DNA from: Thermoplasmata archaeon
Lineage (GTDB): Archaea; Thermoplasmatota; Thermoplasmata; Thermoplasmatales; Thermoplasmataceae
Assembly: GCA_021847855.1 (NCBI GenBank)
Contig: JAJZOT010000066.1
Span: forward strand, 1-7,727
Direction of reading: 5' to 3'
Length of the DNA stretch: 7,727 nt
In this document: one piece after another, positions 5,079-6,396 of the stretch
Position numbering within the stretch: the stretch's first letter is position 1
Layout of the letters: every line of letters begins with the position of its first letter
Made by a program: the position numbers and the translations under genes
The notes under the pieces: model-generated
Told to the model about the DNA's origin: nothing
Database searches by the model: none
What the model saw: only the letters and a program-made list of their open reading frames with translations

Positions 5079-6320
5079 TCACATGACAACCGCCGATACT
5101 GCAGTGGAAACGATGAGAATGAACATGAGCAGATATACCGCCTGATTTGCCGGGGACAATACAAGATTACCCATGATTTTCCGGTTGCGGCCAATCAACC
5201 AGAGCATTATCATTGGTGCTATGAGTGCAAACACGAAAAATATGAGCAGATACAGGACTATACCGATCATGTTTGAAGGATCTATTACAAGTACCGCAAC
5301 AACTGCAGGCAAACTTTCCAGAACATATAAAATCCAGTATGATTTTTCTGATATACCGAGGGCTTCAGCCACCCCCCAGGCGCTACCCATGGATATTGTT
5401 ATGAGAGCAACAAATCCTGCGGCTATTATTCCGATGCCAAATACATATGGAGAAAATGTACCCGCTATGGGAGCAAGAACTTGTCCAAGTTCCACCGGGC
5501 TTGCGAAGAATGAAGAATTAGCGGCTCTTGGGATACCCGTAAATGCCATTTCTGCAATTATCATCAGAGTTTCTGTTGATATGGCACCAATAAGGGTCTC
5601 TTTCCTCATTATCCGAACAGACCGACGTCTACCTACCGTGAAACCACCATTTTCAAGTTCTCTAAGCTTCATGCCTGTAGCGGACGCCTGGAAAAATATC
5701 ATGAAAGGCATGATCACGGCGCCAACATTTGCAGCAAGCAGGAAAAAGAAACTGTAAGTTGGTACCAGAAGAATCGGGTTTTCGAGAGGGGATGAGAAGG
5801 GTATTATTCCGCGATAAAACAGGGAGATGAGAAGCGAAATCACGAGAATCAGGGAGATCAAAATCAATGGTTTTTCTGCCTGGGAATATTTTCTTCTGGT
5901 GATTATGGCTATGTGTATAACATACACCACGGGAATGGAATAAAAAAGAGAAATTCCAATTATTTCCAGTCCTACTCCTATTCCAAGATATTCTATTCCG
6001 TATGTGATTATATCAGTCAATGCCATTGGAAAAGCAACAACTGAAGCAATTTTAGTTCCATAATTCCTCCGCACAACAGTTCCGAGTCCGTTCTTCGTTG
6101 CTATGCTGATCCTGCCTGCAAGTTCCTGGACGGTATATAGGGGGATTATCAGTATAAGCATGACCCATATAAGCCCATATCCAAGGGTTGCACCCGTCTG
6201 AGCGGCACCAATATAGGATGATACGTCCATATCGGCCATCATTGCGAGCCATGCTGGACCAAACATCATAATGGTATCTTTCATGAAAAATCTCTTTTTC
6301 ACTGCTATGTTTGATACCAT
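5079..6320 (-). CDS. Divergent NRAMP-family divalent metal transporter
   Basis: This 413-residue membrane protein has about eleven hydrophobic segments (roughly 17-38, 47-66, 92-118, 122-142, 150-168, 190-212, 242-262, 283-312, 327-347, 353-377, 392-412), the NRAMP/MntH topology. The TM1 region GPAWLAMMADMDVSSY, followed by TG-x-x-x-GYGLIWVML and QELAGRISIATKNGLG, aligns with classical NRAMPs. TM6 has GAVIMPFMIFFQ. NRAMPs import Mn2+ or Fe2+ with protons across the cytoplasmic membrane. Here the TM1 metal motif DPGN is DVSS (Asp32 kept, Asn replaced by Ser35), and TM6 MPH is MPF (Met204 kept, His replaced by Phe206; the second His of the helix is Gln211), so metal choice and proton coupling may differ. 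ATG 6320 follows GTGAT by five bases; Met13 (6284) is a less likely alternative. A DtxR-type operator upstream supports a role in iron or manganese uptake. Confidence 0.88.
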   Translation of the reverse strand: MVSNIAVKKRFFMKDTIMMFGPAWLAMMADMDVSSYIGAAQTGATLGYGLIWVMLILIIPLYTVQELAGRISIATKNGLGTVVRRNYGTKIASVVAFPMALTDIITYGIEYLGIGVGLEIIGISLFYSIPVVYVIHIAIITRRKYSQAEKPLILISLILVISLLISLFYRGIIPFSSPLENPILLVPTYSFFFLLAANVGAVIMPFMIFFQASATGMKLRELENGGFTVGRRRSVRIMRKETLIGAISTETLMIIAEMAFTGIPRAANSSFFASPVELGQVLAPIAGTFSPYVFGIGIIAAGFVALITISMGSAWGVAEALGISEKSYWILYVLESLPAVVAVLVIDPSNMIGIVLYLLIFFVFALIAPMIMLWLIGRNRKIMGNLVLSPANQAVYLLMFILIVSTAVSAVVM

Positions 6321-6368: not shown

Positions 6369-6387
6369 TTAGGTTAGCCTAACTATC
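6369..6387 (-). promoter_or_regulatory. DtxR/IdeR/MntR-type metal-repressor operator
   Basis: Read on the plus strand, bases 6369-6383 are TTAGGTTAGCCTAAC. This is identical to the first 15 bases of the 19-bp bacterial DtxR/IdeR operator consensus; the last four (6384-6387) differ. The core GTTAG-C-CTAAC is a perfect inverted repeat centred on 6378. The site lies between the NRAMP TATA box (6388-6396) and the expected transcription start near 6367, where a bound repressor would block initiation. The inference is repression by a DtxR-family protein loaded with Fe2+ or Mn2+. The regulator gene is not in this window. Confidence 0.75.
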
Positions 6388-6396
6388 TATTTAAAA
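6388..6396 (-). promoter_or_regulatory. TATA box for the NRAMP transporter gene
   Basis: TTTTAAATA on the minus strand is the best TATA match upstream of the transporter. It predicts a start near 6367 and a leader of about 45-50 bases, unlike the leaderless promoters elsewhere in the window. A weaker alternative, GGATATAACG (6331-6340), would start transcription inside the annotated coding region, so I prefer the upstream box, which also abuts the operator. Confidence 0.55.

Follow-up and report, generated by a model that had tools for sequence, protein, structure and literature searches.

The operators of the actinobacterial metalloregulators DtxR and IdeR are described in two lengths: a 19-bp box, TTAGGTTAGSCTAACCTAA, and a 14-bp half-site, TTAGGNNNNCCTAA. 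They overlap the transcription-start region and control metal uptake genes, as we propose here for an archaeal promoter (PMC10317159, PMC8464063). In S. erythraea, a single IdeR dimer is reported to bind a designed half-site with an apparent KD of 78 nM (PMC8464063), and a 14-bp consensus was proposed in that study to redefine the 19-bp box (PMC8464063; also PMC10317159). The unit TTAGG-N4-CCTAA is common to the actinobacterial operators and the site analysed here, and it equals the 14-bp consensus of the S. erythraea study. In contrast to Actinobacteria, only the one-dimer half-site is conserved here, the promoter is of the archaeal TATA type, and the genes behind it encode NRAMP, ZIP-like and MFS proteins. 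IdeR of M. tuberculosis is only distantly related to our regulator (E about 7e-17).

MntR of the B. subtilis type is a DtxR-family regulator of an NRAMP uptake gene (MntH). It is short (142 aa in PDB 1on1) and without the SH3-like domain, and its operator differs from the one described below. For archaea, Leyn and Rodionov (2015, J Bacteriol 197:451) reportedly predicted palindromic DtxR sites in many genomes, before NRAMP, ZIP and Feo genes and in about ten motif groups. The novelty of our finding is therefore limited: archaeal DtxR regulons are already published, and the box adds a further case to them. Judged by titles and the opening lines of abstracts, literature searches listed no open article about DtxR operators of Thermoplasmata, and we do not claim absence from print.

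Our window, the whole stretch of DNA that was analysed, comprises 7,727 bp of contig C25 from a 1.6-Mb Thermoplasmata genome (79.56% complete). We propose, with a probability of about 0.87, that a palindrome in it is the operator of a long, subtype A DtxR metalloregulator, which would repress the NRAMP gene when metal is plentiful. We infer binding, the identity of the metal, repression and the presence of subtype A in this organism from sequence. One striking string thus leads to a testable archaeal metal regulon, with the regulator subtype named.

The palindrome in the NRAMP promoter

An earlier note on this DNA had described a near-perfect 19-bp DtxR/IdeR box with a perfect 5-1-5 inverted repeat at its core. 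The repeat is there (GTTAG-C-CTAAC), and TTAGGTTAGCCTAAC at positions 6369-6383 is the same as the first 15 bases of TTAGGTTAGCCTAACCTAA. The remainder does not agree: positions 6384-6387 read TATC where the 19-mer has CTAA. "Near-perfect" is too strong, because the 19-mer consensus has zero matches at up to 3 mismatches across the window. What is exact is the 14-bp palindrome of the DtxR/IdeR type, TTAGG-N4-CCTAA, at 6369-6382.

The 19-bp form for two dimers has four CCTAA repeats over 19 bp, and the window box does not have them. Nor does a third or fourth repeat (a CCTAA/TTAGG extension) occur at any of the 40 listed TTAGG-class sites (one of them, L334, repeats a site of G020). These sites keep TTAGG and CCTAA in a loosely A/T-rich surround, while centre and flanks vary. 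By comparison with them, the window site is a 14-bp, one-dimer DtxR/IdeR operator rather than a 19-bp, two-dimer box, with binding as a prediction.

Read along the minus strand, the promoter has TTTAAATA at 6395-6388, then a 5-bp gap, the operator, a further 48 bp and the ATG. The operator lies just downstream of this TATA-like element, as in the earlier note. Similar A/T-rich elements precede several related boxes (judged by eye). In the sister genome, G001, the palindrome also lies 48 bp from the NRAMP start; its flanks and two of its central bases differ. The two boxes are identical at 12/14 positions, including all ten half-site bases; outside the box, the last 100 bp agree at 35/86 positions. 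The 15th matching base (6383) is not conserved, since the sister and the 40 listed sites keep only the half-sites.

Table 1. Coordinates of the promoter elements and the transporter gene in the window.
Feature	Position	Strand	Basis
Operator TTAGG-N4-CCTAA, half-site pair (predicted one-dimer DtxR/IdeR site)	6369..6382	.	Sequence; sole exact genome copy; kept before NRAMP, ZIP-like and MFS genes of relatives
Remainder of the 19-mer: one matching base (C), then TATC for CTAA; outside the conserved operator	6383..6387	+	Sequence; flanks of the 40 listed sites
TATA-like element TTTAAATA, 5 bp before the operator as read towards NRAMP	6388..6395	-	Read from sequence
NRAMP-family divalent metal transporter, 413 aa, ADMDVSS and MPFM kept	5079..6320	-	PF01566, E=2.8e-39; alignment

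By chance, the 15-mer at up to 2 mismatches appeared in 3/200 dinucleotide shuffles of the window. When the 250 bp ahead of NRAMP were shuffled, 10/20,000 sequences contained TTAGGN4CCTAA or TAAGGN4CCTTA (a variant described below) in exact form. The 15-mer has no second exact copy in the 1.6-Mb genome (the next best has 2 mismatches), and the only exact TTAGGN4CCTAA is likewise the NRAMP-promoter copy.

The transporter

In the window NRAMP, the TM1 Asp (D32) and TM6 Met (M204) of transition-metal NRAMP/SLC11 proteins are retained, and a Ser occupies the position of the TM1 Asn. The TM6 Met is described as a soft ligand for transition metals (PMC8806188). The protein scores below the cut-offs of the narrower MntH/Nramp models of NCBIfam. 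Its best PDB match is 7qia (E=2.5e-23), which we take to be an NRMT entry; that 7qia ranks ahead of MntH counts against a simple transition-metal reading. It is 82% identical to the NRAMP of G001. The other genes of the window encode an aldolase/short-chain-dehydrogenase fusion, a class I tRNA synthetase (LeuRS-like), a pyruvoyl arginine decarboxylase, an archease and a DUF427 protein.

A second NRAMP-like gene of the same genome (contig C100; L069:213-1613) encodes 466 aa; its metal site has DAGG and Ala (Ala-Pro-Trp), as described for NRMTs of the magnesium type. For such DAGG/Ala-type genes, six upstream regions, the one on C100 included, contain neither a TTAGG box (up to 1 mismatch) nor a TAAGG box near the gene. 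These genes serve as an internal control, and hence the box goes with the transition-metal type.

Among NRAMP relatives we read 80 of 525 loci. Either box was upstream in 16, all titled Thermoplasmata, Thermoplasmatota or Ferroplasmaceae. Loci titled bacteria, Sulfolobales/Sulfolobaceae, Micrarchaeota, Nitrososphaerales or Thaumarchaeota had no box in the up to 1 kb read. Hence the box did not travel with the NRAMP gene.

Recurrence before metal genes

Counting alone does not reveal a regulon. Across 41 genomes, TTAGGYTARCCTAA (up to 1 mismatch) is not in excess: there are 27 sites, against 46 for the reversed control pattern. Placement differs: 20/27 sites lie at metal genes vs 1/46 for the control (Fisher 3.8e-11). 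A site was counted as at a metal gene when its distance to the start of an NRAMP, DtxR, ZIP-like, ferritin-VIT or FeoA gene was -60 to 150 bp. The one control site belongs to an MFS relative. The signal resides only in placement, not in motif number.

The exact TTAGGN4CCTAA has 52 sites in the 41 genomes, 35/52 of them before NRAMP, DtxR, ZIP-like, MFS or FeoA genes; this metal-gene set was built partly from the matched loci themselves, and gene labels therefore weigh on all such k-of-n figures. The NRAMP, DtxR, FeoA, FeoB and VIT members that we scanned pass Pfam cut-offs. Two ZIP-like proteins pass (L056, L130); the other scanned ones are below cut-off or unscored and were linked by BLAST. 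The box or its TAAGG variant stands in the promoter of the window-type NRAMP (or of a DtxR-NRAMP pair) in 19/20 same-family genomes that have this NRAMP, so the motif is conserved in related NRAMP promoters. Boxes recur before the ZIP-like, MFS, FeoA and ferritin-VIT genes of relatives.

These placements support, at the level of sequence, the tie to iron or manganese homeostasis that the earlier note had drawn. Its expectation that the motif would recur before metal genes holds in relatives, but the window's own genome offers one target only. Among 10 near-matches there (up to 1 mismatch, the exact one included), no second convincing metal-gene target was clear by eye.

Two operators and two DtxR subtypes

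Where an NRAMP gene has no TTAGG box, TAAGG-N4-CCTTA is often present. In nearly all of 18 listed sites this variant extends to GTAAGG-N4-CCTTAC. DtxR-family genes were found in 38/41 genomes searched, the window's own among them. We collected 93 DtxR proteins and labelled them by recognition helix and length: subtype A 26, subtype B 14, short subtype C 47 and others 6 (five weak matches in G030, G033 and G036, with frames of 130-159 aa that are shorter than intact B, are left out of these counts). Subtype A proteins have 204-263 aa as open frames and a recognition helix S/T-x-P/A-T/S-A/V-x-E/Q. Subtype B proteins have 212-246 aa (one broken) and R-Q-S/T-V/A-x-D-E. In the tree, a single branch sets A apart from all other proteins, and another does so for B (FastTree support 92 and 100).

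The operator variant and the subtype go together. In 31 genomes we found both an exact NRAMP box and subtype A or B: TAAGG occurs with B in 11/11 and TTAGG with A in 20/20, with B in 0/20 of the TTAGG genomes (p=1.2e-8, uncorrected for kinship). Two genomes hold both subtypes (G010, G014); their NRAMP has TAAGG beside the B gene, and their ZIP-like gene has TTAGG. Site placement was also counted by subtype. Exact TTAGG sites lie at metal-set genes in 26/31 cases in A-only genomes, 2/2 in genomes with both subtypes, 7/17 where neither was seen and 0/2 in B-only genomes. For exact TAAGGN4CCTTA the figures are 12/22 (B-only), 2/3 (both), 0/10 (A-only) and 0/10 (neither), covering 45 of 67 sites; the 22 left out are in genomes without B. 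Away from metal-set genes lie 5/31 exact TTAGG sites of A-only genomes and 10/22 TAAGG sites of B-only genomes. Together these comparisons support, from sequence data, that the operator variant tracks DtxR subtype A or B across NRAMP genomes.

A tree of 34 NRAMP proteins requires at least five switches of operator class. Independent pairs on this tree agree in operator and subtype in 5/5 cases (p=0.0625; five pairs cannot reach p<0.05). Four genomes are not among its 34 rows: G007 (NRAMP in pieces), G026 (NRAMP cut by the locus end), G046 (one-mismatch box) and G041. G026 has a TTAGG box and subtype A, and G046 a one-mismatch TTAGG box and subtype A. In G007, subtype B is present, and the fragmented NRAMP has no exact box beside it.

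Predictions set before the last genome search came true in 11/12 further genomes. The predicted TAAGG genomes had B in 4/4 and A in none, and in two of them B was visible beside the gene beforehand. The predicted TTAGG genomes had A in 7/8 and B in 0/8. In the eighth, G041, only C was seen, and this is perhaps a mixed bin. Several of the 12 are near relatives of earlier genomes (e.g., G052 of G013), so the outcome is a confirmation rather than 12 independent tests. Four more genomes had neither an exact box nor a prediction; three of them (G049, G050, G051) showed neither A nor B, and G046 has A. In five order-mates (group f4), exact TTAGG sites are absent from the whole genome and TAAGG sites from the contig that carries NRAMP. 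Their DtxR-NRAMP pairs have another recognition helix (GAINDE/GAVNDE-type), and our search revealed no operator for them.

In IdeR, Ser37 and Pro39 are described as touching the thymine at position 3 of CCTAA, with Thr40 near position 2; Pro39 also lies near position 4, a contact judged unspecific (PMC10317159). Subtype A keeps the IdeR contact pattern, except for Gln43 to Glu in most and Pro39 to Ala in some proteins, whereas in subtype B residue 39 is Gln and residue 43 is Asp. We assume here a residue numbering of both helices after a DtxR sequence. It is at position 4 of CCTAA that the two operators differ, close to residue 39, which is Pro or Ala in A and Gln in B. The fit between the two changes is suggestive only, because the bacterial work favours shape readout: the IdeR study argues for it over direct base reading (PMC10317159).

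The best PDB match of subtype B is 4o5v/4o6j (E=2.5e-55), with the same R-Q-S-V recognition helix. We take these entries to be IdeR of T. acidophilum. The crystallised T. acidophilum IdeR is thus subtype B, and its operator would be GTAAGG-N4-CCTTAC, unlike the TTAGG-N4-CCTAA of the window. Subtype A has no close structure (best PDB match 5zr4, E=1.5e-21). The earlier note had suggested that DNA recognition is conserved between bacteria and archaea. This applies to TTAGG-N4-CCTAA with subtype A, but the sister subtype B goes with another operator.

We lean towards a scenario in which a Thermoplasmata metal regulon (NRAMP, ZIP-like, MFS, ferritin-VIT) passed at least five times between the two DtxR subtypes. 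The operators of several genes would have changed along, from TTAGG-N4-CCTAA to GTAAGG-N4-CCTTAC or back. Two subtypes, two operators, several genes and repeated switches make a paired system for regulator-operator change. If the scenario is true, the hand-over is a natural, replicated experiment in regulator-operator co-evolution.

The probable regulator of the window's box

In the proposed mechanism, the cognate regulator would be a long DtxR-family protein of subtype A, with a helix close to that of DtxR/IdeR. One metal-loaded dimer would occupy TTAGG-N4-CCTAA, downstream of the TATA box and ahead of the expected start of transcription. When Fe2+ or Mn2+ is plentiful, the bound dimer would block NRAMP transcription. 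When metal is scarce, the repressor would come off and metal uptake would rise. NRAMP suggests Mn2+ or Fe2+ as the metal of the regulon; ferritin-VIT and FeoAB in the more distant G029 suggest iron.

The earlier note had also called for a DtxR-family gene in the genome. There is one, but the only DtxR found in the window's genome (G000) is a 136-aa subtype C protein. No subtype A gene was found in this assembly (79.6% complete), and the likely cognate A was seen only in the sister genome and genus mate G001. G002 and G020 (84% and 79% complete) also have boxes, with no DtxR found bar one weak match in G020 (E=0.006).

Could the short subtype C protein bind the box instead? It is the one DtxR at hand in the window's genome, and its helix, KPPSAIELL, retains the Pro-Ser/Thr pair as DtxR does. 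However, C occurs in TTAGG genomes, in TAAGG genomes and in G051, which has no exact NRAMP box. It therefore does not track the operator, and the DtxR genes that we saw adjoining NRAMP in Thermoplasmata are long ones. We consider binding by C improbable. A full 19-bp box with two bound dimers is very unlikely: the first 15 positions match, but the last four fail, the window has no 19-mer at up to 3 mismatches, and the 40 listed sites show no repeat extension. We dropped this reading over the mismatched tail and the unextended relatives.

The subtype A operator reading must also be weighed against explanations without a DNA-binding protein. A palindrome can fold, and this one, near the presumed start site, could form an RNA hairpin in the leader (5-bp stem, 4-base loop). 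Such a role is more doubtful still, as the box variant follows the DNA-binding helix of DtxR, and central bases and flanks of the box vary among sites. Least credible, to the point of being nearly negligible, is a functionless chance palindrome. The genome-wide motif count, which does not exceed the control pattern, would agree with chance, but the placement at metal genes (20/27 vs 1/46), the 48-bp offset kept in the sister while flanks diverged, and the presence of either variant in 19/20 same-family genomes with this NRAMP would not.

Further sites and loci

In nine genomes (two with identical proteins), genes of one MFS family start 0-21 bp past a DtxR box. The box is TTAGG at L227, L228, L232, L235, L237 and L245, and TAAGG at L213, L218 and L253. 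The boxes single out this family as a possible transporter of metals or metal chelates.

Genes for rubrerythrin-like/VIT fusions (L060:398-1387, L133:1628-2617, L202:458-1447) have a box 54-114 bp upstream. It reads TTAGGTTAACCTCA in G020 and G002; in a genome with subtype B it reads TAAGGAAATCCTTA in the direction of the gene. In group f5 (G028, G032; L238, L240, L241), TTAGGTATGCCTAA or TTAGGCATGCCTAA lies at a distance of 3-4 bp from genes that were labelled by eye as NifX/DraG-like or radical-SAM-like. These sites possibly belong to another regulator.

The record Thermoplasmata archaeon isolate YF1.bin96 contains a protein identical to the window NRAMP. Over 700 bp this record and the window have the same sequence, but not over the full 4,950 bp retrieved. 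The bin also has another NRAMP, and its DtxR C differs from the one in G000 (L267, L277); it may be mixed. In three loci (L281, L285 and L286, titled as a bacterium, Mesoaciditoga and an Athalassotoga plasmid), NRAMP relatives without a box are directly followed by a different DtxR-like gene, which suggests lateral transfer of these relatives.

TTAGGCGGTCCTAA is kept in four genomes (L221, L222, L248, L249) and raises raw motif counts; its surroundings are alike in all four and show no clear gene, and they are perhaps ribosomal RNA, as a guess. At L091 (G012:C1:922874-923935), an in-frame TGA lies within the NRAMP gene, and the TAAGG box is still kept.
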